In this document: one piece after another, positions 9,105 to 58,677 of the stretch | Numbering within the stretch: the stretch's first letter is position 1 | Layout of the letters: the number at the start of each line of letters is the position of its first letter | Assembly: GCF_000194155.1 (NCBI RefSeq) | Contig: NZ_GL877878.1 | Span: 124,001 to 188,000, forward strand | Reading direction: 5' to 3' | Origin: Saccharopolyspora spinosa NRRL 18395 | GTDB taxonomy: Bacteria > Actinomycetota > Actinomycetes > Mycobacteriales > Pseudonocardiaceae | DNA: 64,000 nucleotides | Notes under the pieces: generated by a model | Told to the model about the DNA's origin: nothing | Database searches by the model: none | What the model saw: the letters and a program-made list of their open reading frames with translations, nothing else | Made by a program: the position numbers and the translations under genes

Positions 9105-9208
9105 AAGGGAACCTTCCTGTCACCAGCGGCTGCCGTCGGCGTTCACCGCAAATGCTGAGCCGGTCCTGCCGCGTGCCTTGGACAGGCCGGAAACAGGAAG
9201 GTTCCCTT
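9105..9208. repeat. Interspersed repeat, inverted pair after the MFS gene
   Basis: Two facing copies of the short repeat: 9105-9120 (AAGGGAACCTTCCTGT) and its exact reverse complement at 9193-9208, a 16-bp perfect pairing around a 72-base spacer. The first copy starts 5 bases after the MFS stop codon. It could act as a 3' hairpin. Confidence 0.85.
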
Positions 9209-9357
9209 GATACCGCCAGCCAGTGAGGCTGTTGTGTTCTTAGACACAATTGGCATGTGATTTCAGTCCGCCGAATCGTGATTCATGAGGCGGGTGTGAA
9301 CGTGCTGTGACGACGCCAGGCCGCCAAGCCTGCTCGGGACCGCCTAGAATTCAGGGC

Positions 9358-9777
9358 GTGTACCGCAGCCTGCTGACTCCGCGTTGGCTGCTTCTGCACG
9401 CGCTGTTCATCGTGGCCACGGTCGCCACCGGTTTCCTGGCCGTGTGGCAGTGGGATCGTGCGCACGAAGCTGGGGGGAGCTTCCAGAACCTCGGCTACGC
9501 GCTGCAGTGGCCGCTGTTCGGCGTGTTCACGATCTTCTTGTGGATCCGCCTGATGCGCATGGAGGTGCACCGCGGGGACGAGGCGGAACCGGCAGGCGCA
9601 GTCCAGGAAGAAGCGGTCGGCCCGGAGGTCACCGCGGAGGCGCCGCCCGTAATGCGCCGGAAGCGGCCGCTCGTGCCGCCACCGGCGCCGCCGGTCGATG
9701 CTGGGGATGATCCGGAACTCGCCGCCTACAACCACTACCTGGCGGAGTTGAACGAGTCGGATCGGCGCGCTAGCTGA
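9358..9777 (+). CDS. Two-helix membrane protein of unknown function
   Basis: A 139-residue protein when read from GTG at 9358, giving VYRSLLTPRW, a start typical of small actinobacterial membrane proteins. Two hydrophobic helices follow: WLLLHALFIVATVATGFLAV (about 10-30) and WPLFGVFTIFLWIRL (about 48-64). A Glu/Pro-rich cytoplasmic tail contains RRKRPLVPPPAPP and ends AAYNHYLAELNESDRRAS. An upstream in-frame start at 9307 would add 17 residues without a ribosome site. The opening resembles SURF1-type proteins but the second domain is absent. Its stop overlaps the 3' end of the convergent gene by 8 bases. Function unknown. Confidence 0.75.
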   Translation: MYRSLLTPRWLLLHALFIVATVATGFLAVWQWDRAHEAGGSFQNLGYALQWPLFGVFTIFLWIRLMRMEVHRGDEAEPAGAVQEEAVGPEVTAEAPPVMRRKRPLVPPPAPPVDAGDDPELAAYNHYLAELNESDRRAS

Positions 9778-10150
9778 ACGTGATGTTGCCCTTGATCTCG
9801 CGCGCCTGAATCAGGTTGTTGACCTCGCCGTGGTTCACGTTGACCACGCCGTCGTCGGCGGCCGAGATGGCTTTGTGCACTTCGGCGCCCTCGGCGCGCA
9901 GCTGCTCGGCGAAAGCGGCATCCTCTCCGCAAACCTGGTCCAGCCGTTCGGCCAGGGCTTTGATCTGCGGCTGGCCCGCGGACTCCTGCTCGGCGGCTTC
10001 GAGCGCGGCCTGCGTCTCCGGATCGTTCTGCGACCTGCGGCGCACGAGCTCGCGCACCTTCACCAGGGCCTGGCTTCCGGCTTTGCCCAGCGCGGTGGCG
10101 ACCTGACCGGCGAGCGCGGTGGCCAGGGAATCCAGGAACGGGTCGGTCAT
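9770..10150 (-). CDS. Small helical protein with an amyloid-like C-terminal motif
   Basis: A 126-residue protein with no signal peptide. The first 90 residues are predicted helical: Ala-rich ATALAGQVATALGKAGSQAL, then charged helices with ALEAAEQESA and IKALAERLDQV. The last 30 are different: VVNVNHGEVNNLIQAREIKG then NITFS. This Gly/Asn/Gln pattern (GxVxNLIQAxxIxGNITF) looks like the short actinobacterial motifs of the form GxVxGxVVQAxxIxGxVHF that have been proposed as RHIM-like amyloid signalling tails. By analogy the helical part could be an effector or adaptor domain. No NLR-type partner is encoded nearby. The ORF is convincing; the functional idea is inference. Confidence 0.8.
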   Translation of the reverse strand: MTDPFLDSLATALAGQVATALGKAGSQALVKVRELVRRRSQNDPETQAALEAAEQESAGQPQIKALAERLDQVCGEDAAFAEQLRAEGAEVHKAISAADDGVVNVNHGEVNNLIQAREIKGNITFS

Positions 10151-10441
10151 TTTTCCTCCGCGTGATCAACTCCGGTGGTCACCAAGTGTAGTGATCTGAT
10201 CCGGATCCGTGGGGTTGTCGGCCAGGACTCGGCCATTTGGTGCAACGCCGCCGGGATCAGCCGATGTGATATCAACGAATCGACTGACAGCAAAGAGAAG
10301 TAGGTGTCGACTGGTTCCGCGTGTGCGGGTCAGCGGTAAGCTCTTCGGCCGGTCGGTGGACGGGCAAGACGAGGCCTGGGTGGGCACTGTGCCCCGCGAT
10401 CGGTGGTCAAGTCGTTTGGACACTTGGTGATTGGGGCTGGC

Positions 10442-12532: not shown

Positions 12533-12550
12533 GGGATCTGACGTAGATGA

Positions 12551-12589
12551 GGTCCGTGCCCGCTGGTTCGGCGGGCACGGACCTTTTTC
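12551..12589 (+). terminator. Rho-independent terminator of the PBP gene
   Basis: An 11-bp perfect stem (12552-12562 with 12572-12582, arm GTCCGTGCCCG), a 9-base loop and five T at 12584-12588. It lies 20 bases past the PBP stop. Confidence 0.9.
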
Positions 12590-12771
12590 GATGCCGAGCC
12601 AGGATGAGAGAACCGGCTCGCGGACGCGCTGCTTTTCGCTGCTGTCGGCCCGCAAGGACGTCTCGTCGATGCCCGCTGCGAGCCGCATGCGCGGCCGCAG
12701 AGAACCGCCATTTCGGCCATCAGTGGGGCGACCCTCAGCAGGAGCTCAGCAAGGGTTGGCAAAATGCCGAC

Positions 12772-13728
12772 GTGAGCACCGAGGATGACCGGGTCGATGT
12801 ACGGGGCGTTGCCAGTTTCGTCGCAATTGCATATGTGCCGGCATGGCTGTTGACCTTGCCCCTGTGGCTTACCGGCGAAGGACTGTCGTGGAATTGGGCA
12901 CCGCTCGTTCTCACGGTCATGATGTTCATGCCCGCAGTCGCGGCGTTGGTGGTCAACAAGTGGATCAGCCCACGACCGAAATTGCTGCGCACCCTGGGAA
13001 TCACAAACCCCGGCGGTATCAAGAAGTGGTGGCCTTATGTACTGATTGCCTGGTTGGGGCCTCCGCTGGTGATGGCCCTCGCGCTGCTGGTGGGCTATCT
13101 GCTGGGGGTCTATCAAGCCGACTGGACCGGTTTCTCCGGGCTCGCAGAACAGGCCGGGCCCACAGTGGTGGGTTCGGCACCGCAAACGCCGCCCGGGATG
13201 CTCGCGCTCATCCAGATCGCAATGGTCTTCGGACTGGGCTGGTTGCAGATCATTCCCGCGCTCGGTGAAGAACTGGGGTGGCGTGGCTACCTCACTCAGG
13301 CGCTGCTGCCCCTCGGTCAGCCCGGCGCGTTCGTCACGACAGGGGTGCTCTGGGGTCTCTGGCACGTGCCGGTGCTGATCCTCGGCTACAACTACCCGAC
13401 GCTCCCGATCGTGGTGGCCGTCATCATGATGGTGTGCTTCTGCACCCTGGTGGGCACGTTGCTCGGCTGGCTCAGGCTCGTTTCGCGCAGTGTCTGGCCG
13501 TCGACGATCGCCCACGGATTCCTCAATGCGGCGGCTGGTTTGGGCACGGTCTTCAGCATGGCCGGGCACCCCGTCGACAACGCATCAGTGGGCCTTCTCG
13601 GGTGGACCGGATGGATCGTGCTCGTCCTGCTCATCCTGGTCCTCGTAATGCTCGGGAAACTGCCGATGCAGTTTCCTGCGGAGACGGTCGGAATCACCCG
13701 AGGAGTCAACCGGCGCACTCGACGCTGA
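12772..13728 (+). CDS. CPBP-family intramembrane metalloprotease (CAAX protease-like)
   Basis: A 318-residue polytopic membrane protein with about eight hydrophobic helices. It has the CPBP/Abi motifs: EELGWRG (EExxxR, starting about residue 166), WGLWHVP (motif 2 His) and HGFLNA (motif 3). In this family these residues bind a metal and cleave peptide bonds inside the membrane; bacterial members include bacteriocin self-immunity and regulatory proteases. The GTG at 12772 gives VSTEDDRVDVRG and then the first helix. There is no obvious partner gene, and a copy of the interspersed repeat follows the stop by 10 bases. Family sure, substrate unknown. Confidence 0.9.
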   Translation: MSTEDDRVDVRGVASFVAIAYVPAWLLTLPLWLTGEGLSWNWAPLVLTVMMFMPAVAALVVNKWISPRPKLLRTLGITNPGGIKKWWPYVLIAWLGPPLVMALALLVGYLLGVYQADWTGFSGLAEQAGPTVVGSAPQTPPGMLALIQIAMVFGLGWLQIIPALGEELGWRGYLTQALLPLGQPGAFVTTGVLWGLWHVPVLILGYNYPTLPIVVAVIMMVCFCTLVGTLLGWLRLVSRSVWPSTIAHGFLNAAAGLGTVFSMAGHPVDNASVGLLGWTGWIVLVLLILVLVMLGKLPMQFPAETVGITRGVNRRTRR

Positions 13729-13737
13729 CGGCTCCAC

Positions 13738-13762
13738 GAGAGCATGGCGACCTTCCTGTCAC
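13738..13762 (-). repeat. Interspersed repeat, single copy
   Basis: GAGAGCATGGCGACCTTCC followed by TGTCAC, one mismatch-bearing copy in the reverse orientation, 10 bases after the CAAX-protease stop. Confidence 0.75.
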
Positions 13763-13843
13763 TCACCGAGAACAGGCCGTCTGACGGCGTGGGAACGCCG
13801 AATGCTCCACCCCCGCGCTTTGGCGGAGTGAAAGCATGGGGGC

Positions 13844-15202: not shown

Positions 15203-15217
15203 CCCCCGGCTGGGAGC

Positions 15218-15271
15218 GAGAGCATGGGAACCTTCCTGGCACTGCCATGACTGGAAGGTTCCCATGCTCCA
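15218..15271. repeat. Interspersed repeat pair forming a perfect hairpin
   Basis: A 17-bp perfect stem, GAGCATGGGAACCTTCC at 15220-15236 and its complement at 15253-15269, with a 16-base loop. It starts 15 bases after the serine-hydrolase stop. This is the cleanest paired copy of the family. It lacks a T-tract. Confidence 0.9.
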
Positions 15272-15371
15272 ACAGCCGTAGCCGCCAGCCAGACGAGGCA
15301 TTCCGGCCTCGATTTCGGCGGACTGGTGCCGTCGCGGCCCTGCGGAAACGGTGTGAGGCATCCTGATTGGT

Positions 15372-15806: not shown

Positions 15807-15868
15807 CGTGTGCCGTCGGTGTTCGCGACTAGCCTCGGGACAGGACTAACGCAGAAGGGACATTGCTG

Positions 15869-16813
15869 ATGCGTACGGCTTGGGTCTTGCCGGGTGGCTC
15901 CACCTTCGGGGCAATCCAGGCCGGCCTCGTTACGGCATTGTTCGAGGCCGGTGTCGAACCCGACGTGGTCGTCGGGACCTCCGCTGGCTCGCTGAACGCG
16001 GCATGGCTTGCCGGCGACCCGACGCCTCGTGGGGCGGCAAAACTCCGCGAGCTCTGGATGTCGATGCGGCGCACGGATGTCTTCCCGATCCAACCCACGC
16101 GGATATTCGCGGGGAAACTCGGCTTGTCGAACCACGTGATGGGCAACCACGGGCTGGCGCGCTGGCTGCACAACAACCTGCCGTTTCGCCGGTTGGAGAA
16201 CGCGCAGATCCCGGTGACCGTGACCGCAACCGATCTGGACACCGGCGAGCCGGTGTATTTCGAAAGCGGTCCGGCGCTTCCTCCGCTGGTCGCGTCGTGC
16301 TCGATTCCTGGGATGTTCCCGCCGGTGAAGGTCGGGGACCGTTGGCTGGTGGACGGTGGCCCGGCGGCGTTCATGCCCATCAGCCGCGCTGTTGAGCGCG
16401 GGGCGGAGCGTGTTTTCGTGCTGCCGTGTGGCGGCACTGAACCGTTCGAATTCAACCGGCGCAGGCGCGGGATCGGTTCGATCGCGACCTGGCCACCGCC
16501 GAAGACGCCGCCGAGGTCGGTCGGCGGAGTGAACGGCGCAGCGCTCGGGGCAGCGATGGTGTCTGCCGCGCGGCTTGATATGCAGTTGAACGCGACGCGC
16601 TGCGAGCTCTACGTGGTGCCCGCCCCATCGGTGGTGGGCCTCTCGCCGTATTCCTTCGCGCACGCGGGTGCCCTGATCGACGCTTCTTGGGAGGTCGCCA
16701 AACGGTGGTATCCCACGGCCAAGCCAGTGCCATCCGGACCAGTCGACATCGGTGGTAACCCGAGCACCAGCGGTCGGTTCGGGGTTACCGAATCAGCCCC
16801 CAACGCCAAATGA
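15869..16813 (+). CDS. Patatin-like phospholipase
   Basis: A 314-residue lipid acyl hydrolase. The N-terminal GGSTFGAIQAGL is the oxyanion-hole segment. GTSAG (about 36-40) carries the nucleophilic Ser and DGG (about 163) the Asp of the catalytic dyad. ATG at 15869 is chosen because AGAAGGGA lies about 8 bases upstream; in-frame TTG and CTG codons at 15863 and 15866 are poorer. No signal peptide, so it acts in the cytoplasm or at the inner membrane face. It is followed directly by a repeat pair and IS debris. Confidence 0.9.
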   Translation: MRTAWVLPGGSTFGAIQAGLVTALFEAGVEPDVVVGTSAGSLNAAWLAGDPTPRGAAKLRELWMSMRRTDVFPIQPTRIFAGKLGLSNHVMGNHGLARWLHNNLPFRRLENAQIPVTVTATDLDTGEPVYFESGPALPPLVASCSIPGMFPPVKVGDRWLVDGGPAAFMPISRAVERGAERVFVLPCGGTEPFEFNRRRRGIGSIATWPPPKTPPRSVGGVNGAALGAAMVSAARLDMQLNATRCELYVVPAPSVVGLSPYSFAHAGALIDASWEVAKRWYPTAKPVPSGPVDIGGNPSTSGRFGVTESAPNAK

Positions 16814-16823
16814 CCCGTCGATG

Positions 16824-16864
16824 AGAGCAAGGGAACCTACCTGCCAGCCGGCAGGAAGGTTACG
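16824..16864. repeat. Interspersed repeat, degenerate inverted pair at an IS junction
   Basis: GAGCAAGGGAACCTACCTGC (16825 onward) faces GGCAGGAAGGTTAC (16850-16863). The arms pair imperfectly. The copy lies 11 bases after the patatin stop, and the transposase frame begins at its right edge. Confidence 0.7.
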
Positions 16865-18840: not shown

Positions 18841-18845
18841 CCGTA

Positions 18846-20616: not shown

Positions 20617-23598
20617 TTAGTCGGCTGAGTGCGCGTCGCGGAGGCTGTGCTTGCCTTCGCGGACTCCGCGTTGGAAACTGGCCAGCCGCCCACGCATCAG
20701 GTCCGCATCGCGGCGCGGCGTCACAGCCGGATCGGTAGCCGTTCCCGGCACCAGTTGGGCTCTTGGGGTTCGCCTGGGCAGCCCGGCAGTGGTGTAGTCG
20801 ACGGATTCCTGGTCGATGAGGGGCTCGGGTGCTGCTGCGGCGGCGCCGTTGGTGCTCGGCTCCGGGGCCGCCTGCGGCGACTCCCCTGCCGGTGCGGTGC
20901 CGTTGTGGCGGGCCGGCTGCTGCCTGTGGCGGCCGCGTCGAACACCGGCCTGGAAGCTCGCCAGCCGGCCGCGGGCAACATGCGGATCGCGGGGCGGCCG
21001 TGCACGCTCGCTGTGATCGGCGCCGGCGCTCCCGGCCACCAGGTTCGCTCGCGGAACCCGCAGCGGAAGACCCGCAGTGGTGTAGTCGGCGGGTTCTGCG
21101 GCCGCGACTTCCTCCGCCCGCTGTCTTGCCTCGTCGTTCGCGAAGGTCCACACGCTCTGGCCGCCGTGACCGTTCCGCGTGGGCTGGGAGGAAGGGAACC
21201 TTCCTGTCATCGGCGGTGGGACGGTTCCCTTGCTCTCAGCATCCGCTGGGGGAGCGGGCCATCGGATGGCGGGGCGGGTGGCGGTGTGGGAGACCTGCGA
21301 CGGCACTTGGAACCACGCGGTGGCGAGGTCGTCGAAGATCGGTGTCGGGGCCGTCTCGTCGTTGTGCTTTTCGGCAATCTGCGCGGGCGCTGGGGTGATC
21401 TCTTGGGTGTTGGACAGTTCGCCTGGCAGCGCCGGCGGAGCCCCGTTGGCAGGGGTGCGGGACAGGTGGATTCCGTTGCGCGCGAGGTGACGCTGGCTGG
21501 ACGCGTCCTGTTCGGCCGCCTCCCAGTCGAACTCCTCGACCAGCGTGTCAGCGGTGCGGTCGTCGGGCACGATGCCGTTGCCCGCGAACGGCAGTGACGG
21601 GCCCGGCACTGCCGGGCTCGCCACATCCACCAGCAGTTCGGGCCCGAGGCTGACCGCGACGTGCACCCCGACCTCCTCGGGTCCGGGACGCAGTTCGGCC
21701 CGGATTCCGTGGCGGCTGGCGAGCCGGCCGACGACGAACAGGCCCATGCGCCGGGACGTCGACAGCTTGATCTCTTCGTCGGTGGCCAGCCGCTGGTTGA
21801 CCGCGTTCAGCTCGTCCGGGGACATGCCAATGCCGCGGTCGACGATGTCGACTTCCAGCGATCCGTCGCCGCGCCGATGTCCGGAAACGGTGACCTGGGT
21901 TTCCGGGGCTGAGAAGTTCGCCGCGTTGTCGAGGAGTTCGGCCAGCAGCCGCACCAGGTCGCTGGCCGCGTATCCGACGATCTTGACGTCCGGCAGCGGC
22001 TGGACGATCACCCGCGGGTAGTGCTCGATCTCCGACACCGCAGCCCGGATCAGATCCGCGGGCGACGTCGGCTGGGAGAACCGCCGGGCCGGGTCAGCCC
22101 CGGAGAGCACCATGAGGTTCTCGTTGTTGCGGCGCATCCGGGTGGCCAGGTGGTCCAGCTGAAACAGGGTCGCCAACTGGTCGGGGTCTTCCTCGTCGCG
22201 TTCGAGCTGCTCGAACAGCCGGAGCTGCCGTTCCAGCAGGCTCTGGCTGCGTCGCGACACGTTGACGAACGAATCGCTGTAGCTGCGGCGGAGTTCGGCC
22301 TGCTCGGTGGCGAGGTTGACGGCTTGGGTGTGCACGTCGTCGAAGGCCCTCGCCACTTCACCGATCTCGTCAGTGCTTTCAACCGGCACCTGGTCGACGG
22401 GGGATCGGGTGGCATGACCGGCGCGGATGTCGGCGACAGCTTGCGGCAGCTGGTGGTTCGCCGTGTCCAGCGCGGTGCGCCGCAGGATATCGAGGGAGCC
22501 GAGCAGGTGCCTGGCCACCACGACGACGATCGCGCCCGCGATCAGCAGCGCCGACAGCAGGATCACCGACTCCAGCCCGGCCATGTTGCTGGAGCTGTCC
22601 TGCAAGGCGAACGCGGTGTCGTGCAGCTGCTGGTCAAGGTGCGTTTGGAGCATGTCGAGCGCTTCGAGCGCCGTCCGGGACTGGTCTTTCCAGGCCGAGG
22701 GCGATACCAGCTGCGTGGAGATCCGCGACTTGCTGTTGTCGCGTTCGACCATCGCCAGCTGCACCGACGTTTCCCGCGCCGGCACCTCCGGCTTGGCGTA
22801 GAGCTGGTCGTAGCGCATCCGTTGTTGCGGCGTGGCGGACGCGCGGAATTCCTTGACCGCGGAGGTGCGGCGGGATTCGCTGGCCGCTAGCCGAGCCAGG
22901 TTGTCGGTGGTGAAGCTGCCGCGGGTCAGCCCCACGAGCACCAGGGCCTGCTGAAGCTGCATCTCCTCGCTGATCTGCGCCAGCTCGTGCGCGCTGATGG
23001 CGGTGGACACCAGCTGGGACGACGAGATCTGGCTGGTCAGCGTGCGGTCGAGCGCGAGCAGCACCCCGACGAACTCGGTGTAGGTGTTGATCACGACCCC
23101 GGGGTCCGGGTGGCCGCCCAGCACCTGCTGGCGGATCGGCGCGAGCCCGGTGAGCTGCCGGTCGGTGTCCTGCCGGGCGAACCGGACCGCATCGCCGTCC
23201 GGGACGGACCGCAGTCGCTGGTGGATCTCGTCCAGGGCCCGGTCAGTCGCGGTGTAGTGTTCCTGCACTTCCGGCGCGGAAACCGGCCCGCGCACCAGGA
23301 ATTCCGCGGCCTTACTGCGTTCCTGCTGCAGGCGGCCAACGGCCGCGCGCACGACGTTGCCGGCCGCGACCACCCGGTCCAGCTTGGCGTAGTGGTCGGC
23401 CTGGTTGATCTGGCTGAGGATCTGCAGCACGCCGAGTACCAGGGCGAAGATCACCGGAACGAGTACGACGGCGGTGATCTTGACCGGTAGTTTCCAGTTG
23501 CGCCAATTGGTGATCCGCCCGGTGAGCTTCGGTGTGGTGCGCGACCACGTGGACGCCCGGGTCGCGTTCGCGGTCGGGTTTTCGAGTCCGCTGCTCAC
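20617..23598 (-). CDS. Nitrate/nitrite-sensor-type histidine kinase (CvnA-like)
   Basis: A 993-residue membrane kinase, first gene of the conservon. After a cytoplasmic start (GTG 23598, VSSGLENP) come helix 1 (ITAVVLVPVIFALVLGVLQI), a large extracellular NIT sensor region, helix 2 (ILLSALLIAGAIVVVVARH), a HAMP-like segment and a HATPase domain: ELLDNAANFS (N box, about 551) and DRGIGMS (G1, about 586). The conventional phospho-accepting His region is not obvious, as in other CvnA proteins. The C-terminal 300 residues are disordered and contain two copies of a module, DYTTAGLP...PRA.LV followed by RGRLASFQ.GVR (about 836 and 932). A copy of the interspersed repeat is translated at about 787-803. 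An in-frame ATG at 23754 would add 52 unlikely residues. Confidence 0.92.
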   Translation of the reverse strand: MSSGLENPTANATRASTWSRTTPKLTGRITNWRNWKLPVKITAVVLVPVIFALVLGVLQILSQINQADHYAKLDRVVAAGNVVRAAVGRLQQERSKAAEFLVRGPVSAPEVQEHYTATDRALDEIHQRLRSVPDGDAVRFARQDTDRQLTGLAPIRQQVLGGHPDPGVVINTYTEFVGVLLALDRTLTSQISSSQLVSTAISAHELAQISEEMQLQQALVLVGLTRGSFTTDNLARLAASESRRTSAVKEFRASATPQQRMRYDQLYAKPEVPARETSVQLAMVERDNSKSRISTQLVSPSAWKDQSRTALEALDMLQTHLDQQLHDTAFALQDSSSNMAGLESVILLSALLIAGAIVVVVARHLLGSLDILRRTALDTANHQLPQAVADIRAGHATRSPVDQVPVESTDEIGEVARAFDDVHTQAVNLATEQAELRRSYSDSFVNVSRRSQSLLERQLRLFEQLERDEEDPDQLATLFQLDHLATRMRRNNENLMVLSGADPARRFSQPTSPADLIRAAVSEIEHYPRVIVQPLPDVKIVGYAASDLVRLLAELLDNAANFSAPETQVTVSGHRRGDGSLEVDIVDRGIGMSPDELNAVNQRLATDEEIKLSTSRRMGLFVVGRLASRHGIRAELRPGPEEVGVHVAVSLGPELLVDVASPAVPGPSLPFAGNGIVPDDRTADTLVEEFDWEAAEQDASSQRHLARNGIHLSRTPANGAPPALPGELSNTQEITPAPAQIAEKHNDETAPTPIFDDLATAWFQVPSQVSHTATRPAIRWPAPPADAESKGTVPPPMTGRFPSSQPTRNGHGGQSVWTFANDEARQRAEEVAAAEPADYTTAGLPLRVPRANLVAGSAGADHSERARPPRDPHVARGRLASFQAGVRRGRHRQQPARHNGTAPAGESPQAAPEPSTNGAAAAAPEPLIDQESVDYTTAGLPRRTPRAQLVPGTATDPAVTPRRDADLMRGRLASFQRGVREGKHSLRDAHSAD
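21191..21238. repeat. Interspersed repeat pair inside the histidine-kinase coding region
   Basis: GAAGGGAACCTTCCTGTCAT (21191-21210) faces GGGACGGTTCCCTTGCTCTC (21219-21238). AAGGGAACC pairs with GGTTCCCTT. In the minus-strand frame it encodes KGTVPPPMTGRFPSS in the disordered tail, so the frame is kept. Confidence 0.85.
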
Positions 23599-24436
23599 GA
23601 CGCAGTCCTTTCCCACGCGGTCGAAGTCTGCACCGACGGCGCGTTCGTGTGGTGGGCAGCCTGGGCCCGTCTGTGGTGTGCGCGGCAGGTCTTGGTGGCT
23701 GGTGGGGCTGCTCGCGGCCGGGTTTTCGCCGGTGGCCGGTGCGGTCGTCGACACCGGAGTCCGGAGCCTGCGATCGATGTCGGGGGTGATCGCGGCCGCA
23801 CCGGATTCTTCGTCGCCGAGTGTCGGTGGCAGAACACTACCTCAATGAAATGATCTCCTCCGTTTCTCGGATTTGGTTTTCTGACCAGCGAATTCGTCGC
23901 CGGTGGAGATCATTCTCGCCGGGCCGTGCCGCATGGAGAAGGCTGTGAACACTGATCGTGTTCGTCGTGGCAATGTCTGGATAGGCTTTTGTCGCTCGAT
24001 AGGTAGATGTTGGAGCTACGAATGTTTTGTTCGGCCAGGGGGCTGGGGGGAGTTCAGCCAGGGTTCCCGGCGAGTCCGCTGGCTGCCTTGTTGACCAGCC
24101 GAAACTGGCTGCCCACCAAGCTTTTTCGGGTGTGAGCAGGCAGGCATGAAGGTGCTTCGACGCTGATCAGGCACATCGCGTTGACCACATTCTGTGATCG
24201 ACGAATTCATCAATGTGTGTGCTGTGTCGTTGTGGGAGGCTGCGTGGGCCGGATCGCTGGCTAGACTTCCGGGCTGGTTGGCAGCGCAGGCAGCGCGGTT
24301 CACCGGCACCTCGGATTCACGAACCACTCGATAACGCCGGATCGAAGCGGACCCAGGTGATCGGCCACGGAGCGCGGGGAACTCCGAAGCATCGGCCGAA
24401 ACCACGTCGATGCAGTTCTACTGCTTGGAAGGACGC
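23599..24436. other. Long intergenic region between divergent operons
   Basis: About 840 bases between the conservon and the symporter operon; it should hold both promoters. No convincing gene on either strand. GC is visibly lower between 23840 and 24220 than in the flanking genes. The clearest element is the inverted repeat at 23849-23914, listed separately. A TAGACT hexamer at 24262-24267 could be a -10 box for the symporter operon, but no good -35 box goes with it. Confidence 0.5.
23849..23914. repeat. 14-bp inverted repeat upstream of the conservon
   Basis: AATGATCTCCTCCG at 23849-23862 is matched at 13 of 14 positions by the reverse complement of 23901-23914, with a 38-base AT-richer loop. 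It may be a regulatory stem-loop or operator for the minus-strand conservon, or the ends of a vanished insertion. Confidence 0.6.
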
Positions 24437-24859: not shown

Positions 24860-26424
24860 TCGACACCAACCCCGTGCTCAACATGAGCATCTTCGGGGTG
24901 TTCGTGCTGATCACGCTCTACATGGTCTACCGCGTGAGCAGCACCGGCACCGCGACCGACTACTTCGCCGCCGATGGCCGGTTCACCGGTGCGCAGAACG
25001 GCATCGCCCTGTCCGGGGACTTCCTGTCGGCGGCGTCGTTCCTGGGGATCGCCGGGGCTATCGCGGTGCACGGCTACGACGGCTTCCTCTACTCGATCGG
25101 CTTCCTCGTTGGCTGGCTGATCAATCTGCTGCTGGTCGCCGAACTCCTGCGCAACACCGGGCAATTCACGATGGGTGACGTGCTTAGCTTCCGGATGCGG
25201 CAGCGTCCGGTCCGCGCGGCCGCCGCAGTGTCCACATTGGTAATTTCGTTCGTCTACATGATCGCTCAGATGGCCGGCGCGGGCAGCCTGGTGGCGCTGC
25301 TGCTCGACGTGCACAGCTCCGGCGGCCAGGCGCTGGTCATCGGCGGCGTGGGTGTGGTCATGGTCGTCTACGTGCTGGTGGGCGGCATGAAGGGAACCAC
25401 CTGGGTGCAGATCATCAAGACCGGCATGCTCATGCTGTGCACGGTCATGATGACCTTGTTCCTGATGGGCAAGTTCGGGTTCAGCCTCACCTCGCTGTTG
25501 CAGCACGCGGCGGAGAAGAACCCGTTGGGGGACCGGATCTTCTCGCCCGGCGCGAAGTACGGGCAGAGCGACGTGACCAAACTGGACTTCGTGTCGCTGT
25601 CGCTGGCGTTGGTCCTGGGCGTCGCCGGGCTGCCGCACGTGCTGATGCGGTTCTACACAGTGCCCGATGCGCTGCAGGCACGGCGCTCCGTGGTTTGGGC
25701 GACCTGCACGATGGCCGTGTTCTACCTGTGCACCCTGGTGATCGGGTACGGGGCGGGGGCGGTTAACGGCACGAAGGCGATCCTCGCGGCGCCCGGCGGC
25801 GAGAACTCCGCCGCGCCGCTGCTGGCTTTCCGCGTCGGGGGCACGGTGCTGCTGGGGATCGTGGCCGCGGTCGCATTCGCGACGATCCTCGCCGTCGTCG
25901 CCGGGCTGACGCTGACCGCGTCCGCATCCTTCGCCCACGACGTTTACGCCAACGTCGTAAAGCACGGCAAAGCGGATCCGGACTCGGAGGTTCGTGTGGC
26001 GCGGTTGACCGCGCTCGTGATCGGTGCCGCGTCGATCTTCGGCGGGATCCTCGTCAACGGGCAGAACATCGCATTCCTGGTCTCGCTCGCGTTCGCGTTC
26101 GCCGCTTCAGCGAACTTGTCGACGCTGCTGTTCTCGCTGTTCTGGCGGCGGTTCAACACCCGTGGCACGCTGTGGGGAATCTACGGCGGGTTGAGCTCGT
26201 GCCTGGTGCTGGTCATCTTCTCACCGGTTGTGTCGGGTTCGCCGGACTCGATCCTGCCCGGTGTGGACTTCGCGTGGTTCCCGCTGAGCAACCCCGGGAT
26301 CGTGTCGATCCCGATCTCGTTCCTGTGCGGCTACGTCGGCACCCTGATCGGCGGCGGCCAGGTGAGCGAAAAGCGAACCGCGGAGATGGAAGTCCGCTCC
26401 CTCACCGGCATCGGCTCGTCGTGA
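24856..26424 (+). CDS. ActP-like cation/acetate symporter (SSS family)
   Basis: A 522-residue sodium:solute symporter with about 13 hydrophobic helices. Family features include DYFAADGRFTGAQNGIALSG near the N-terminus, GDFLSAASFLGIAGAI (second helix) and ALVLGVAGLPHVLMRFYTV. With the overlapping DUF485 gene it matches the yjcH-actP arrangement that imports acetate or other short monocarboxylates with a cation. Substrate is inferred from this pairing. An interspersed repeat begins 4 bases after the stop. Confidence 0.92.
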   Translation: MIDTNPVLNMSIFGVFVLITLYMVYRVSSTGTATDYFAADGRFTGAQNGIALSGDFLSAASFLGIAGAIAVHGYDGFLYSIGFLVGWLINLLLVAELLRNTGQFTMGDVLSFRMRQRPVRAAAAVSTLVISFVYMIAQMAGAGSLVALLLDVHSSGGQALVIGGVGVVMVVYVLVGGMKGTTWVQIIKTGMLMLCTVMMTLFLMGKFGFSLTSLLQHAAEKNPLGDRIFSPGAKYGQSDVTKLDFVSLSLALVLGVAGLPHVLMRFYTVPDALQARRSVVWATCTMAVFYLCTLVIGYGAGAVNGTKAILAAPGGENSAAPLLAFRVGGTVLLGIVAAVAFATILAVVAGLTLTASASFAHDVYANVVKHGKADPDSEVRVARLTALVIGAASIFGGILVNGQNIAFLVSLAFAFAASANLSTLLFSLFWRRFNTRGTLWGIYGGLSSCLVLVIFSPVVSGSPDSILPGVDFAWFPLSNPGIVSIPISFLCGYVGTLIGGGQVSEKRTAEMEVRSLTGIGSS

Positions 26425-26427
26425 GCT

Positions 26428-26449
26428 GAAGCAAGGTTCCCATGCTCGG
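26428..26449 (+). repeat. Interspersed repeat, single copy
   Basis: GCAAGGTTCCCATGCTCGG (26431-26449) with its left flank, immediately 3' of the symporter stop. The lytic monooxygenase relic on the other strand loses similarity exactly here. Confidence 0.85.
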
Positions 26450-26836: not shown

Positions 26837-27181
26837 GTCGATTCTCCTCGCTATCCGCCGGTGCCGACTCGGATAGCGGTCGACGATCCATTGTGGATGT
26901 GGCGGGCCGCTGGGTCCGTTGGACCGAACTGCGGTTGTCGCCGCGACCTCGCCGCTGCGTGCCGCGACGAAGCGGGCGTGCCGGGGGTTTTGGAGGTAAG
27001 CGTGCTCGATGCCGATCACGTCCGCGTGCCATGTCGAGTCGTAGCCGTGTCCGAACTCCTTTCGTGCGCCGTCGACATCGGATGGTCGGCTGCCCGAAGG
27101 GTGTACTCGCCGATGCGGTGTTCGAGGTTGTGCTGCATCGCGTCCTCTCTGGGGATTTGATGGTGCGTGTTCGCTTCGGAG

Positions 27182-27204
27182 GCAGGAAGGTGCCCTTGCT
27201 GCAG
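27182..27204 (+). repeat. Interspersed repeat, degenerate copy
   Basis: GCAGGAAGGTGCCCTTGCT (27182-27200), three differences from the family core. Confidence 0.6.
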
Positions 27205-27304: not shown

Positions 27305-27330
27305 GTGACAGGAAAGTCCCCATGCTGTCG
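27305..27330 (+). repeat. Interspersed repeat, degenerate copy
   Basis: GTGACAGGAAAGTCCCCATG (27305-27324) then CTGTCG. Two or three differences from the core. Confidence 0.75.
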
Positions 27331-28956: not shown

Positions 28957-28980
28957 GGAGCATGGGAACCTTCCTGTCGC
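28957..28980 (-). repeat. Interspersed repeat, single copy between convergent genes
   Basis: GGAGCATGGGAACCTTCCTG (28957-28976) then TCGC, a near-consensus copy in the 234-base gap between the convergent FadR-type and MarR genes. The rest of the gap shows nothing else. Confidence 0.88.
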
Positions 28981-32080: not shown

Positions 32081-32107
32081 GGTGACAGGAAGGTTCCCAT
32101 GCTCGCG
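32081..32107 (+). repeat. Interspersed repeat, consensus copy between convergent genes
   Basis: GGTGACAGGAAGGTTCCCAT (32081-32100) then GCTCGCG, filling the 39-base gap between the convergent CDF and DUF305 stops. Confidence 0.9.
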
Positions 32108-41134: not shown

Positions 41135-42928
41135 ATGGTTCTCGCCGAACTGCGCCAACTCGCGGGGGAACTGGGGATCGAGACTGGTGGTCTGCGTAAG
41201 GGCGACCTGATCGCCGCGATCAAGGAGAAGCAGGGCGGCACGACCGTGCCGCGGACCCGCTCCACTAGGAAGAGCACGGCCCGCGCCGAGGAGCTCCCGG
41301 CCGCCAAGGCCCACCAGCCGGCGCTGGACGAGACCGAGGCCGCCCCGCGCGAGACCCCGGCCGAGTCCGGCAGCGGCACCAACGGTGCCCCCACCCGCGG
41401 CCGCACCCGGCGCCCGCAGGTCGCCGAGTCCGCAGGTGAGGACGACAACCGGCGCGGCAACCGTCGCCGCCGTTCGCCTGGTCGGGTCGGCGTGGCCGCC
41501 GAATCGGGTGGTGCCGACGAGCAGCGCGGCCTCGAGCGCAAGTCCGAGGGCCGCGACAACCGCCAGGAGCGCGACAACCGCCAGGAGCGGGATAACCGCC
41601 AGGAGCGGGACAACCGCCCGGAGCGGGACAACCGCCCGGACCGCGGCAACCGGCAGGACCGGGACCGCGACAACCGGCAGGACGACGATGACGACGAGGG
41701 CGGTCGTCGGGGTCGTGGCCGCCGGTTCCGCGACCGCCGCCGCAACCGCGGCCGCGGCGAGGGCGGCGAGCCCGAGGTCCGCGAGGACGACGTGCTGCTG
41801 CCGGTGGCCGGCATCCTGGACGTGCTGGAGAACTACGCCTTCGTGCGCACCTCCGGCTACCTGGCCGGCCCGAACGACGTTTACGTGTCGTTGTCGCTGG
41901 TCCGCAAGTACGGGCTGCGCCGCGGCGACGCGCTCAAGGGCGTCATCCGGCAGCCCCGCGAGGGCGAGCAGCAGCGGCAGAAGTTCAACCCGCTGGTTCG
42001 GGTGGACTCCATCAACGGGCTGGAGCCGGACGCGGCGAAGAACCGCGCCGAGTTCCACAAGCTGACCCCGCTCTACCCGAACGAGCGGCTGCGCCTCGAA
42101 ACCGAGCCGCACAACCTGACCGGCCGGATCATCGACCTGGTGATGCCCGTCGGCAAGGGGCAGCGTGCGCTGATCGTCTCGCCGCCAAAGGCCGGTAAGA
42201 CGATGGTGCTGCAGGCGATCGCCAACGCGATCACCACCAACAACCCCGAGTGCCACCTGATGGTCGTCCTCGCCGACGAGCGTCCGGAAGAGGTCACCGA
42301 CATGCAGCGCTCGGTCAAGGGTGAGGTCATCGCCTCCACCTTCGACCGGCCGCCGTCGGACCACACCACGGTCGCCGAGCTGTCCATCGAGCGGGCCAAG
42401 CGGCTCGTCGAGATGGGCCACGACGTGGTCGTCCTGCTGGACTCGATCACCCGGCTGGGCCGCGCCTACAACCTGGCGGCCCCGGCGTCCGGGCGAATCC
42501 TGTCCGGTGGTGTGGACTCCACGGCGCTGTACCCGCCGAAGCGGTTCCTCGGCGCGGCCCGCAACATCGAGAACGGCGGCTCGCTGACCATCTTCGCCAC
42601 GGCGCTGGTGGAGACCGGTTCCACGATGGACACGGTCATCTTCGAGGAGTTCAAGGGCACCGGTAACGCGGAGCTGAAGCTGGACCGCAAGCTCGCGGAC
42701 AAGCGGCTGTTCCCGGCGGTGGACGTCGACTCCTCCAGCACCCGCAAGGACGAGATCCTGCTCTCGCCCGACGAGCTGGCCGTCACGCACAAGCTGCGCC
42801 GGGTGCTCGCCGCGCTCGACGCGCAGCAGGCACTGGAACTCCTGCAGGACCGGCTGCGCAAGACGCGCACCAACATCGAGTTCCTGATGCAGGTCGCCAA
42901 GACCACCCCGGGCAAGGACGACGACTGA
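41135..42928 (+). CDS. rho: Transcription termination factor Rho
   Basis: From ATG 41135 the product is 597 residues. Order: Rho N-terminal helical domain (VLAELRQLAGELGIETGGLR), a hydrophilic insert of about 170 residues with an Arg/Asp/Asn repeat (units RDNRQE/RDNRPE, about 139-185), the cold-shock-like RNA-binding domain (VAGILDVLENYAFVRTSGYL), Walker A SPPKAGKT (about 348) and Walker B VVVLLDSIT. It is the hexameric RNA helicase ending transcripts. The true start is doubtful: a GTG at 41020 has a fine ribosome site but is one frame off. Frame-2 sequence upstream of 41135 also looks coding (ANGTPRRRGGLSG). See finding. Confidence 0.95.
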   Translation: MVLAELRQLAGELGIETGGLRKGDLIAAIKEKQGGTTVPRTRSTRKSTARAEELPAAKAHQPALDETEAAPRETPAESGSGTNGAPTRGRTRRPQVAESAGEDDNRRGNRRRRSPGRVGVAAESGGADEQRGLERKSEGRDNRQERDNRQERDNRQERDNRPERDNRPDRGNRQDRDRDNRQDDDDDEGGRRGRGRRFRDRRRNRGRGEGGEPEVREDDVLLPVAGILDVLENYAFVRTSGYLAGPNDVYVSLSLVRKYGLRRGDALKGVIRQPREGEQQRQKFNPLVRVDSINGLEPDAAKNRAEFHKLTPLYPNERLRLETEPHNLTGRIIDLVMPVGKGQRALIVSPPKAGKTMVLQAIANAITTNNPECHLMVVLADERPEEVTDMQRSVKGEVIASTFDRPPSDHTTVAELSIERAKRLVEMGHDVVVLLDSITRLGRAYNLAAPASGRILSGGVDSTALYPPKRFLGAARNIENGGSLTIFATALVETGSTMDTVIFEEFKGTGNAELKLDRKLADKRLFPAVDVDSSSTRKDEILLSPDELAVTHKLRRVLAALDAQQALELLQDRLRKTRTNIEFLMQVAKTTPGKDDD

Positions 42929-43010: not shown

Positions 43011-43037
43011 GGTGACAGGAAGATTCCCATGCTCGCA
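43011..43037 (+). repeat. Interspersed repeat between convergent genes
   Basis: GGTGACAGGAAGATTCCCAT (43011-43030) then GCTCGCA; one change from the core. It lies between the rho terminator and the convergent membrane-protein stop at 43049. Confidence 0.88.
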
Positions 43038-43417: not shown

Positions 43418-43694
43418 CGTGAGCCTTCCCAGGACCGAACACAGCTGCACGCGTCGAGGATGGACGGCGTACCACCCCGGACGCACCCTCGACCGGGGGT
43501 CGCTCGGCAGGCGGTTCGTTTGGTGCGTTGGGCGGTTGCGCGGAAGCGCCGAAAGGCCCGCCGGAATACCGGACGGGCCCCCTGCGTTGCAGGTCACAAG
43601 CCCTGGTCTGGCAGAATGCAGGGTTGATCCGGCACCGGTTCACCGCGCGGCAGCGGCCGCGTGGACCCGGCGGCCAAGCAGAGAGGACGAGCCG

Positions 43695-45228: not shown

Positions 45229-46101
45229 GTGACGCGACAGCCCCTACGCCTGGCCATTCTCGAGGCGGAACGCATCCTCGCCGCGGCGGGCGTGGCGAGC
45301 CCGCGCACCGATGCCGAACTGCTTGCCGCGCACCTGCTCGGGGTCGAGCGCACCAAGTTGATGATGGTGCCGTTGGTGGACCCGCCGGTCGTCCAGGCGC
45401 TGCACGACCTGGTGAGCCGCCGGGCCGCGCGGGTGCCGCTGCAGCACCTCACCGGTACCGCGTCGCTCGGGGCCTTGGCGCTCGAAGTCGGGCCCGGCGT
45501 GTTCGTGCCCCGGCCCGAGACGGAATTGCTGCTCGCCTGGGGCCTGGCGACGCTGGACGGCGTGGAGCGGCCGACCGTGGTGGACCTCTGCACGGGGTCC
45601 GGGGCGCTGGCGCTGGCGATGGCGAACGCCCGCCCGGACGCCACCGTGCACGCGGTGGAGAAGGAGCCCGCCGCGCTGGCCTGGGCGCGCCGCAACGCCG
45701 ATCGGCAGACTCAGGCCGGTGACACCCCGATCCACCTCTACGCGGGGGATGTCACCGACCCGATGCTGTTCATGGAGCTGGAGGGCCTGGTCGACCTGGT
45801 CCTCTGCAACCCGCCGTACGTGCCGGAGGGCACCCCGGTGCCGCCGGAGGTCCGCGACCACGACCCGCACCAGGCGGTGTTCGGCGGCCGCGACGGCCTC
45901 GACGTGGTCCGGCACGTCGTGGGCTGTGCGGCCCGGCTGCTGCGCCCCGGCGGCGGGGTGGCCATCGAGCACGACGACACCCACGGCGGCTCGGTGCCCG
46001 CTCTGCTGCGAGCCCGCCGCGTCCTCGAAGATGCCCAGGAGCACACCGACCTGGCCGGTCGCCCCCGCTTCGCCACCGCCCGCCGCACCCGGCCGGAGTG
46101 A
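45229..46101 (+). CDS. prmC: Peptide chain release factor N5-glutamine methyltransferase
   Basis: A 290-residue SAM-dependent methyltransferase. VVDLCTGSGALALAMA is the SAM-binding motif I and NPPY (about 194-197) the catalytic motif. It methylates the GGQ glutamine of release factors, and its place directly after prfA fits. The final codons run into an interspersed repeat, which begins at the stop codon itself. Confidence 0.96.
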   Translation: MTRQPLRLAILEAERILAAAGVASPRTDAELLAAHLLGVERTKLMMVPLVDPPVVQALHDLVSRRAARVPLQHLTGTASLGALALEVGPGVFVPRPETELLLAWGLATLDGVERPTVVDLCTGSGALALAMANARPDATVHAVEKEPAALAWARRNADRQTQAGDTPIHLYAGDVTDPMLFMELEGLVDLVLCNPPYVPEGTPVPPEVRDHDPHQAVFGGRDGLDVVRHVVGCAARLLRPGGGVAIEHDDTHGGSVPALLRARRVLEDAQEHTDLAGRPRFATARRTRPE

Positions 46102-46123
46102 CAGAAAGGTTCCCATGCTCCAG
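46096..46123 (+). repeat. Interspersed repeat overlapping the prmC stop codon
   Basis: GAGTGACAGAAAGGTTCCCA (46096-46115) then TGCTCCAG. The TGA of prmC is part of the repeat. Lies in the 36-base gap between convergent genes. Confidence 0.88.
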
Positions 46124-47991: not shown

Positions 47992-48000
47992 GCCACCGGT

Positions 48001-50697: not shown

Positions 50698-50757
50698 CGA
50701 GAAAGACCAAGACCTCCGATCCGCGCCTAGAAGCGGACCGAGTGAAAGGTAGTGAAA

Positions 50758-51015: not shown

Positions 51016-51045
51016 TAACGGCTTAACGCGTTGGGAGACGTTGTG

Positions 51046-51609: not shown

Positions 51610-51612
51610 GGA

Positions 51613-51800: not shown

Positions 51801-51828
51801 GCTCTAACCGAGTGAAAGGCGCTGAGAG

Positions 51829-52659: not shown

Positions 52660-52714
52660 CGAAGCGTCGAACACCAACTCCCTTCCAAGAACTAACCGAG
52701 GGCAGGAACGAGAC

Positions 52715-54361: not shown

Positions 54362-54372
54362 CCGGGTAAGTC

Positions 54373-56731
<2,359 letters not shown>

Positions 56732-56768
56732 GCGCCTGACCCCGCTGGCGGGGTCGGCAGACCGGCAA

Positions 56769-56800
56769 CGGGGTCGGGGTCCGAGCGGACCCCGACCCCG
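56769..56800 (+). terminator. Strong hairpin between atpD and atpC
   Basis: A perfect 14-bp stem, CGGGGTCGGGGTCC (56769-56782) with its complement at 56787-56800, and 4-base loop. Probably attenuates or ends the main atp transcript before atpC. Confidence 0.8.
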
Positions 56801-56901
56801 CTTGCCAAGCACCGCGACAAGGCAATTCCAGCCCGGCCAGTCACGATCGCCCTGGTGGCACCGGATAGACTGCGGGCACACACCCGACAAAGGAGACGCG
56901 C

Positions 56902-57267
56902 GTGGCCAACATGTCCGTCCAACTGGTCGCCGTCGAGCGCCGCCTGTGGTCCGGGGAGGCGACCGCCGTGGTCGCGCAGACCACCGAAGGGGAGATCGGC
57001 ATCCTGCCGGGGCACGAGCCCCTGCTCGGCGAGCTGATCGAGGGTGGCGTGGTGCGCATCACCACCACCGACAAGGAGACCGTGACCGCTGCGGTGCACG
57101 GTGGTTTCCTTTCCGTCACCGCGGACGGTGTGAGCGTGTTGGCGGAGACCGCTGAGCTCGCCTCCGAGATCGACGTGGCGCAGGCCCGCGAGGACGTCAA
57201 GAGCGCGGATGAACAGGCCCGGGCACGGGCCTTGAGCCGATTGCGAGCAGCCGGCCACTCGGCCTGA
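56902..57267 (+). CDS. atpC: F0F1 ATP synthase subunit epsilon
   Basis: A 121-residue subunit with the N-terminal beta-sandwich ([36 protein letters not shown]) and a C-terminal helical pair ([20 protein letters not shown]). It inhibits ATP hydrolysis. AAAGGAGACGCGC precedes the GTG. It is 170 bases from atpD, behind a strong hairpin, and a TAGACT hexamer at 56866-56871 may be its own -10 box. Confidence 0.96.
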
Positions 57268-57279
57268 TCCGGGCCGCGC

Positions 57280-57717
57280 ATGGGTTCCCCGGTCCTGTTG
57301 CTCGCGGTGGCCTTCGGGCTGCTGATGACCGCTGCCGTGGTCGTCACGGCGCTCGCGTGGCGGCGGCTGCGGGAACTGCGCGTCGGGGGCATCGACGTGG
57401 CGTTGCGCGCCCGCAAGGACGGCGATGGCCGCGGCTGGCACCTGGGCGTCGCGCACTACCGGGGCGAGGAGTTCGCCTGGTACCGGGCGCTGAGCCTGCG
57501 ATCGGGGCCGAACTGGGTGATCAACCGCCGGGACGTGGAGATCGCGCGGCGCCGCGAGCCGTCGATGGCGGAGGCCTACGCGATGCCCACCGGGTCGACG
57601 GTCCTCGGCCTGACCGGCCCGGAGCTGGAGCTGGCGATGAGCACCGACGCCCTGACCGGCTTCCTGTCCTGGCTCGAATCCGCCCCACCGGGCCGATCGG
57701 TGCACTGGGCATCCTGA
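57280..57717 (+). CDS. DUF2550 membrane-anchored protein
   Basis: A 145-residue protein with one N-terminal helix (VLLLAVAFGLLMTAAVVVTA) and the DUF2550 domain: GGIDVALRARKDGDGRGWHL then GVAHYRGEEFAWYRALSL and a C-terminal LTGFLSWLESAPPG. This family nearly always follows atpC in actinobacteria, as here (12-base gap). Role unknown. Confidence 0.92.
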   Translation: MGSPVLLLAVAFGLLMTAAVVVTALAWRRLRELRVGGIDVALRARKDGDGRGWHLGVAHYRGEEFAWYRALSLRSGPNWVINRRDVEIARRREPSMAEAYAMPTGSTVLGLTGPELELAMSTDALTGFLSWLESAPPGRSVHWAS

Positions 57718-57742
57718 ATCCTTCCAGCGGGGTCCTGCGGAC

Positions 57743-57898
57743 GCCGGCTGCTCGCGGATCCGCCTGGACACCGCCGCCGAACTCCACGAAGCCCGCGCGC
57801 TCTACGCCTCGTCGGGGTACCGGGAAATCCCCGCCTGCAACGACAACCAGTACGCAAAGCACTGGTTCGAGAAACCCTTGCGCTCAACGGAGTCCTAG
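57743..57898 (+). pseudogene. C-terminal relic of a GNAT acetyltransferase
   Basis: 52 codons with no start: SRIRLDTAAELHEARALYAS then SGYREIPACNDNQYAKHWFE and KPL to a TAG. This is the typical last strand-helix-strand of a GNAT N-acetyltransferase. The rest of the gene is missing, deleted up to the DUF2550 stop. Confidence 0.75.
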
Positions 57899-58037
57899 GC
57901 TTCGGAGATGCGGATCTAGAACGGTCGCGTACGACCACCCCGACGCCAAACAGTTGATCGACGGCCTCCAGCAGTAGTACGTGATCCGCGTTCGGGGCGT
58001 ACCGCGACGACCCGCTGAGCAGGTGTTCGCCGGAGGT

Positions 58038-58610
58038 CTAGGCGTTGCCGCCCGGCTTCCAGAGGACGTCGCCGTCCGGGTTCGCTACCCGGGCGAGGAT
58101 GAACAGCAGGTCCGACAGCCGGTTCAGGTACTTGGCGGGCAGCGGCGAAGTGCGCTCGCCGTCGGCTTCCTGTAGTGCCCACGCCGACCGCTCGGCGCGC
58201 CGGGCCACGCACCGTGCCTGGTGCAGCAGCGCGCCGCCGGGGGTGCCGCCGGGGAGGATGAACGAGTCCAGCTTGCCCAGGCGCGCGTTGAACTCGTCGC
58301 ACCAGCCCTCGAGGCGGTCGACGTAGGCCTGCGTGACGCGCAGCGGCGGGTACTTCGGGTTCTCGACGACCGGCGTCGACAGGTCCGCTCCCACGTCGAA
58401 CAGGTCATTCTGCACTGCCCTCAGCACCGCGACGACGTCGTCGGCGAGCTGCGCGGTTGCCAACGCCACGCCGAGCACCGAATTCGTCTCGTCCACATCG
58501 GCGTAGGCGATCAGCCGCGGATCGGTCTTGTGCACCTTGGAGTTGTCCGACAACCGAGTCGTGCCCGAATCGCCGGCCCGCGTGTAGATCTTCGTCAGGT
58601 GGACTGCCAT
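58038..58610 (-). CDS. Cob(I)yrinic acid a,c-diamide adenosyltransferase (PduO/MMAB type)
   Basis: A 190-residue trimeric enzyme that attaches the 5'-deoxyadenosyl group of ATP to cob(I)alamin. YTRAGDSGTTRLSDNSKV is the N-terminal ATP loop, DETNSVLG follows, and FILPGGTPGGALLHQARCVA with RRAER forms the cobalamin/ATP site. ATG at 58610. Divergent from murA; a repeat copy lies between their starts. Confidence 0.95.
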   Translation of the reverse strand: MAVHLTKIYTRAGDSGTTRLSDNSKVHKTDPRLIAYADVDETNSVLGVALATAQLADDVVAVLRAVQNDLFDVGADLSTPVVENPKYPPLRVTQAYVDRLEGWCDEFNARLGKLDSFILPGGTPGGALLHQARCVARRAERSAWALQEADGERTSPLPAKYLNRLSDLLFILARVANPDGDVLWKPGGNA

Positions 58611-58650
58611 GCCGACAGCCTAGGCGGATCCCGCCCGGCGCCCGGGCGTG

Positions 58651-58677
58651 CGTGACGGGAAGGTTCCCATGCTCGCT
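58651..58677 (+). repeat. Interspersed repeat between divergent genes
   Basis: CGTGACGGGAAGGTTCCCAT (58651-58670) then GCTCGCT. The only near-consensus copy seen in a divergent promoter region rather than at 3' ends. Confidence 0.88.

Follow-up and report, generated by a model that had tools for sequence, protein, structure and literature searches.

A short dyad repeat confined to one chromosomal block of Saccharopolyspora, tentatively read as an array of protein-binding sites

Introduction

The window analysed here is a 64-kb stretch of DNA (G000:C1:124001-188000) from a Saccharopolyspora genome of 8.58 Mb in 22 contigs, and it carries a family of short repeats, many of which stand directly after genes. 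What is such a family for, and does it belong to the genome as a whole or to this part of it? The first-pass annotation had listed 13 loci, had called the family REP-like, and had offered 3'-end processing, a protein-binding site or a mobile element as its nature. A literature search by repeat sequence found nothing. Among the top-ranked papers listed in the subject searches (at most 10-15 each), no title or opening of an abstract describes an array of this kind in the bacterial family, subscription journals and preprints lying outside the scope of these searches.

Results

Repeat copies in the window

The 17-bp core (up to three mismatches) matched 15 times at 13 loci in the window, compared with a shuffle mean of 0.17 and a largest shuffle value of 2. 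The 23-mer scan (up to six mismatches) gave 16 copies at 13 loci, and all 13 loci listed earlier carry copies of the family. At the first locus the core scan caught a copy at 9196; its neighbour at 9101-9123, whose 3' end has diverged further, was caught by the 23-mer scan. The consensus of the 16 window copies was GTGACAGGAAGGTTCCC(A/T)TGCTC. The copies, and the gene that holds one pair of them, are as follows.

9101-9123, minus strand: repeat copy, 1 bp 3' of the stop of ORF 8672-9100
9190-9212, plus strand: repeat copy, loose inverted partner of 9101
13740-13762, minus strand: repeat copy, 12 bp 3' of the stop at 13728
15220-15242, minus strand: left arm of a tight inverted pair, 18 bp 3' of a stop; RNA fold z −6.6
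15247-15269, plus strand: right arm of the tight pair with 15220, from the scans and the RNA fold
16825-16847, minus strand: repeat copy, 12 bp 3' of the stop at 16813
20617-23754, minus strand: sensor kinase with Pfam NIT, HATPase_c and a weak HAMP; the element lies in its variable C-terminal linker
21188-21210, minus strand: arm of the intragenic pair, in frame in the sensor-kinase gene; the element is also in orthologues
21213-21235, plus strand: other arm of the intragenic pair, with a degenerate core, from the 23-mer scan and the orthologue comparison
26425-26447, plus strand: repeat copy, directly 3' of the stop at 26424
27179-27201, plus strand: diverged repeat copy in a long spacer
27305-27327, plus strand: diverged repeat copy in a long spacer
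28958-28980, minus strand: repeat copy in a convergent gap
32082-32104, plus strand: copy identical to the consensus, in a convergent gap; G009 and G018 also have a copy in this gap
43012-43034, plus strand: repeat copy in the convergent gap after rho (Pfam Rho_RNA_bind); the gap is occupied in G009 and G034 and empty in G018
46098-46120, plus strand: repeat copy overlapping a stop codon, in a convergent gap
58652-58674, plus strand: repeat copy between divergent starts; G009 and G034 have a copy in the same gap, which is empty in G018

By our own gene calls, which covered 0.83-0.87 of the sequence, eight of the 13 loci had a stop codon within 30 bp, and one further locus lay in a convergent gap. 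The earlier statement that nearly all copies sit at stops or in convergent gaps stood for these nine, but not for 27179 and 27305 in the long spacer, 58652 between divergent starts, or 21188/21213 inside an ORF. Likewise, two of the four inverted pairs reported earlier were tight and head-to-head (15220/15247 and 21188/21213); of the other two, 9101/9190 is a loose pair, its cores lying 89 bp from each other, and the partner of 16825 is only partial.

Confinement of the family to one block

In the whole genome that holds the window, all 19 copies with at most one mismatch lay inside 207 kb (C1:48,518-255,848), and a reversed-pattern control gave 0 matches. The bare 11-mer GGAAGGTTCCC matched 41 times in this genome, 34 times in the block and 7 times elsewhere. 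A looser core, run over C1:1-400,000 in 20-kb bins, matched only between 40 and 260 kb. The family reaches beyond the window but not through the genome, all copies at one mismatch or fewer being found at C1:48.5-255.9 kb. It is not a genome-wide REP; it is a repeat of one region.

The core was present in 20 of 22 genomes of the genus, with 6-95 copies each (at most one mismatch; reversed control 0), and G014 and G016 were the two congeners without an array at that limit. With patterns and mismatch limits that differed between searches, 91 of 91 copies lay within 288 kb in G001, 86 of 87 within 231 kb in G007 and 43 of 43 within 203 kb in G018 (exact 13-mer and reversed control 0 in the latter two), 86 of 88 within 201 kb in G009 and 54 of 59 within 166 kb in G034, a member of another genus (looser pattern in both, with a reversed control of at most one match per genome). 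Among the five G034 copies outside the block is a full pair; it lies 0.7 Mb from the block and about 0.1 Mb from parS. Among more fragmented assemblies, G002 had 23 of 23 copies on one 283-kb contig of 80, and G003 had 36 copies on three of eight contigs, those of the first contig reaching near its end. Confinement was near-complete in the six genomes with the region on one contig (G000, G001, G007, G009, G018 and G034).

The exact 22-mer was found in 115 stretches of a named-species collection, all from Saccharopolyspora and covering 12 named species. In a sample of 200 genomes of the bacterial family, 37 had any match; outside the window's genus, counts above 2 occurred only in G034 (10) and in four of six sampled genomes of genus g46 (45-63), one of which, G119, was found to have 36 core copies in 80 kb of the atp region. 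Most sampled genera of the family had no array at the stringency used. A pair-specific pattern matched in five of 397 genomes of the order, all in the same family; this pattern skips single-site arrays, giving zero for G002 and G006 although both bear arrays, and the reach of the repeat beyond this bacterial family is therefore known for the paired form only. As the array is absent from G014, G016 and most sampled genera, it is dispensable.

Chromosomal place of the block

The array block is one syntenic orthologous block in G000, G009, G018 and G034 by reciprocal best hits, and its genes include rho, a release factor and ATP synthase genes by Pfam. The array lay 0.82-1.44 Mb from dnaA or parS in G001, G007, G009, G018 and G034, whose chromosomes measure 4.8-9.4 Mb; if the terminus lies roughly opposite the origin, the array region is not Ter. 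The sites resemble those of parS/ParB in being dyads clustered in one part of the chromosome. However, their sequence is unrelated, and in five relatives parS (GTTTCACGTGAAAC) was tightly clustered on its own, next to dnaA in both genomes for which the two were mapped; a parS variant was ruled out by this separation. For S. erythraea, large transcriptional macro-regions are reported (PMC3610266).

Anatomy, folding and 3'-end preference

The site is 23 bp long, GTGACAGGAARGTTCCCWTNCTC in Saccharopolyspora, and is arranged around a GGAA-NN-TTCC dyad, with the genus consensus GTGACAGGAAGGTTCCC(A/T)T(G/C)CTC. The G034 version is a 56-bp palindrome of two 27-bp GTGACAGGAAAGTTCCCTTACTGTCAC units. 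Sites occurred singly, in tandem, or as head-to-head pairs with cores exactly 25 bp apart; inverted pairs and tandems are also seen in REPs. Tandem arrays varied in copy number and look like repeat expansion. Ten stretches held 71 inverted pairs with the 25-bp core spacing, of which G034, G018 and G119 had 31, 22 and 10, respectively; the remaining pairs fell to G000 and G009 (3 each) and to G014 and G016 (1 each), and the other three stretches had none. The arms of a pair covaried at positions 11, 18 and 20 in G034 and at positions 0, 8 and 11 in G018 (shuffle p 0.0005-0.015, uncorrected for 30 positions), and at positions 4-6 no covariation was seen in either genome. This covariation fits hairpins, copying, or symmetric recognition.

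Loci numbered 26 in G000, 50 in G009, 34 in G034 and 18 in G018. With the intragenic ones (2, 4, 2 and 1, respectively) left out, 38%, 65%, 44% and 59% of the loci between genes lay within 30 bp of a stop codon, compared with 10-13% of random intergenic points in the same four genomes; the proposed enrichment at stop codons was therefore confirmed. Single copies, which made up 20 of the 26 loci in G000, took both orientations in codirectional gaps (same/opposite: G000 5/4, G009 10/6, G034 3/2, G018 1/0).

Such enrichment would be expected of a regional RNA element serving 3'-end processing, mRNA stabilisation or termination of the block genes. The covarying arms are in keeping with it, as are two paired copies that folded strongly as RNA (z −6.6 and −10.3). 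Three of three single copies, however, folded no better than shuffles, the pair 21188-21235 lies in coding sequence, and the mixed orientation of singles also speaks against an RNA role, which would give no reason for restriction to one region. We regard this explanation as improbable, and the general 3'-end processing role proposed earlier was set aside because it leaves the restriction unexplained. As regards intrinsic termination, the consensus has no T run; a terminator or 3'-processing signal was ruled out by the three non-folding singles and the one intragenic pair.

Conservation of positions and of sequence

Co-occupancy of orthologous gaps was compared with expectation, stratified by gap class and length, and the p values are uncorrected for the six genome comparisons. 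G000 and G009 shared 12 occupied gaps against 5.45 expected (p 5e-5), G009 and G034 shared 10 against 6.4 (p 0.006), G018 and G034 shared 6 against 2.8 (p 0.005), and G009 and G018 shared 9 against 6.2 (p 0.03). For G000-G018 (p 0.44) and for G000-G034 (p 0.23) co-occupancy did not reach significance. Flank identity at co-occupied gaps was 0.25-0.50, and core identity there is fixed by the search pattern. In G014, which has no copy at one mismatch or fewer, a degenerate core that shares the upstream flank of 58652 was seen.

Orthologous copies showed no extra likeness over shuffled pairings in any of the six genome pairs, although G034 has its own version of the sequence. Likeness within a genome exceeded likeness between genomes in G009, G018 and G034. 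The G000 copies had a likeness of 0.809 among themselves and 0.831 to those of G009, so set-wise drift holds for G009, G018 and G034 only. Site positions are partly inherited, and the sequences have no locus memory. This combination is expected for sites that track one binder, and also for conversion among copies.

The element inside the sensor-kinase gene

Translated, the pair 21188-21235 reads SKGTVPPPMTGRFPSS; this peptide belongs to the variable linker of the kinase, a protein that has NIT and HATPase domains. An in-frame element stood at the matching place in nine of nine array-bearing orthologues seen, four from the genomes G000, G009, G018 and G034 and five from the named species S. shandongensis L136, S. 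soli L157, S. hirsuta L106, S. kobensis L158 and S. indica L121. G000 and G009 each have one degenerate arm, and the arm spacing varies by whole codons. The kinase gene had no match in the 240-kb matching region of the array-less G098.

The element uses codons that are rare in the region, for example GGA (4-12% of Gly), AGG (2-4% of Arg) and CCT (2-5% of Pro). Codons ending in A or T were enriched in the element in G018 (p 0.001), G009 (p 0.009) and G034 (p 0.03), and the enrichment in G000 fell short of significance (p 0.06). In G014 the intragenic element is eroded, its left arm gone and its surviving Thr, Gly and Pro residues in other codons, and degenerate cores are kept elsewhere in the region. 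At conserved residues, identical codons were commoner inside the element than across the remainder of the gene in just one of ten pairs (p 0.009, uncorrected). These codon patterns suggest selection on the DNA of the element, and the lack of a codon-identity excess in the other nine pairs leaves such selection suggested rather than proven.

Transposases, other repeats and candidate binders

Y1_Tnp (PF01797) was absent from five of five copy-rich relatives (G001, G009, G018, G034 and G119), and also from the array-less G016. It was present in the array-bearing G000 (2) and in G014 (1) and G098 (2), both array-less. For RAYT-type transposases, this means none in the five copy-rich relatives and two genes in the window's own genome. 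With respect to MITEs, the paired form has inverted arms, and the transposase search covered the Y1_Tnp family only. The window pair had no plasmid match. Six viral-contig stretches gave one match each to a 17-bp degenerate pattern.

Palindromic repeats of other sequence were present in the same bacterial family. Sampling of 51 stretches of 20 kb along the G034 chromosome found a palindromic AACGGCACTTT family in 17 of them, and a GAACGGWCCGTTC family was found in G098 and G119, being genome-wide in G098 with at least 234 sites (at most one mismatch). Since genome-wide palindromic families of similar build occur in G119 and G034, confinement is not general for such repeats there. The regional family is exceptional beside the other palindromic repeats of the same genomes. 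As a replacement label in G098, the GAACGGWCCGTTC family was ruled out because it is genome-wide there.

The idea that every region has a label of its own found no support in a survey of G034 (40 samples of 20 kb, 17% of the genome), where the locally repeated 11-mers that were looked up proved to be tandem blocks, a local duplication or genome-wide families. With two weak 11-mers near 2.77 and 4.02 Mb beyond those looked up, further regional families may exist. The core itself appeared in four of the 40 samples outside the block, once or twice in each.

The main competing explanation is that of selfish REP/MITE-like palindromes with local spread only, which began in the block in a common ancestor and stayed there; during replication they would have multiplied by template switching, gene conversion or copying over short distances. 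Such spread would suit the BIME-like mixture of singles, tandems and inverted pairs, the covarying arms, the orthologous copies without locus memory, and the other palindromic families of the same bacterial family. However, the five copy-rich genomes tested have no Y1_Tnp, the same gaps are occupied across genera above chance in four of six pairs with a flank identity of only 0.25-0.50, and the in-frame intragenic element persists. The copies also share little beyond the element, as judged from the consensus, so conversion tracts would have to be very short. Moreover, we know of no mechanism that confines copying to 200 kb over genus-level time. We judge selfish local spread to be less likely than binding sites, though to be taken seriously.

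A binder gene was sought within the 240-kb matching region of G098. Six of 120 genes common to four array-bearing genomes had no tblastn match there, and none of them is an obvious organiser; they include one LysR regulator and one gene without a Pfam match. A LysR-type regulator without a match in the G098 region adjoins the first dense cluster of sites. That neighbour, together with the short conserved dyad, would suit a transcription factor that binds the sites as operators and whose regulon, by chance, forms one large cluster. Yet the sites prefer to follow genes rather than to stand at promoters, occur at about one copy per 2-6 kb, and run through a block holding unrelated housekeeping genes (rho, release factor, ATP synthase), and we give the operator explanation little probability.

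Discussion

The family shares several traits with the REP, BIME and REPIN elements that go with RAYT, being short, intergenic, downstream of genes, and arranged in inverted pairs and tandems. Most REP families are described as spread through the genome and as carrying GTAG/CGTC tags (PMC3733652). The present family, in contrast, is confined to one block, its consensus has no GTAG/CGTC tag, the single units tested form no hairpin, and the copy-rich relatives tested have no Y1_Tnp. The REP-like membership first proposed is not supported, in view of the block of about 200 kb, the missing tag and the absence of Y1_Tnp from copy-rich relatives, and a genome-wide REP was ruled out by the distribution together with that absence.

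To our knowledge, site families that define a region are found in few bacteria, chiefly in the Ter system of enterobacteria and their relatives. The likeness to matS/MatP is that of a short dyad with many copies in one region and largely absent elsewhere, and the element begins with GTGAC, as does matS. Unlike matS (GTGACRNYGTCAC, 13 bp), the site is 23 bp long with another core, belongs to Actinobacteria, and has 6-95 near-exact copies per genome (20 congeners) at 0.8-1.4 Mb from the origin. According to PMC3116907, matS is a 13-bp motif with 23 copies in Ter, and SlmA and SeqA sites occur throughout the chromosome except in Ter. For maoS, PMC5023128 describes one site. The SlmA, SeqA and MaoP/maoS systems share with the present array a regional bias of DNA sites, which in them serve chromosome organisation or cell division.

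We tentatively favour, at somewhat below an even chance, a region-specific array of putative protein-binding sites by which about 200 kb of a single chromosome arm would be marked in a macrodomain-like manner. Occupation of one orthologous block, partly fixed positions, sequences without locus memory and the lack of Y1_Tnp in copy-rich relatives make the binding-site reading the best one, and of the three roles first offered (3'-end processing, binding site, mobile element) protein binding survives best. By analogy, the array may work like the matS or SlmA sites of E. coli, to which it is unrelated in sequence and position. A putative dimeric or tetrameric DNA-binding protein would recognise each genus's version of the site and might organise the block by bridging, tethering or insulating it. 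The preference for 3' ends would then mark the places where a site does least harm.

A more specific picture, which we hold somewhat more loosely, is an actinobacterial macrodomain with a putative dedicated protein, genus-specific sites every few kb over a 200-kb block far from the origin, and co-evolution of site and protein across genera. If true, the chromosome would have an organiser specific to this region and based on neither the origin nor the terminus. Should the family instead prove to be selfish and confined by local spread, it would clearly exemplify a repeat that hardly leaves its neighbourhood across genera, for which there is also no explanation. A dense, orthologously placed array on an actinomycete chromosome arm would offer a handle on the zoning of large chromosomes.

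Other palindromes and features

A second palindrome of the S. spinosa genome (G000), CAGTTTCAATTGAAACTG, was parS-like with an altered centre and showed 8 sites in C1:1-400,000, with further sites elsewhere in the genome.

G000:C1:82168-358343, CAGTTTCAATTGAAACTG palindrome

By pattern count, GTTTCANNTGAAAC occurred 111 times in G000, compared with 3-6 times per genome in five relatives, where 22 of the 24 sites were true parS.

Palindromic families were also observed in other genomes. The array-less relative G098 and the copy-rich G119 shared the GAACGGWCCGTTC family, with 234 and 211 sites, respectively (at most 1 mismatch), and some copies showed a 30-bp spacing between partners. The array-bearing G034 had AACGGCAC-type palindromes, including tandem blocks, and AACGGCACTTT was found in 17 of the 51 stretches sampled from it. 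Inverted GAGGACCCTCC pairs, a short palindrome of a different kind, occupied two places in the array-less congener G014.

G034:C1:1107751-1108003, 1228404-1229019 and 4079160-4079644, AACGGCAC-type family, tandem blocks
G014:C127:4841-6766, inverted GAGGACCCTCC pairs

Two other features were located inside the window.

43629-43675, L31-Actinobacteria ribosomal protein leader (Rfam RF03158)
41547-41696, tandem repeat of an 18-bp unit, within the rho ORF (41135-42928)
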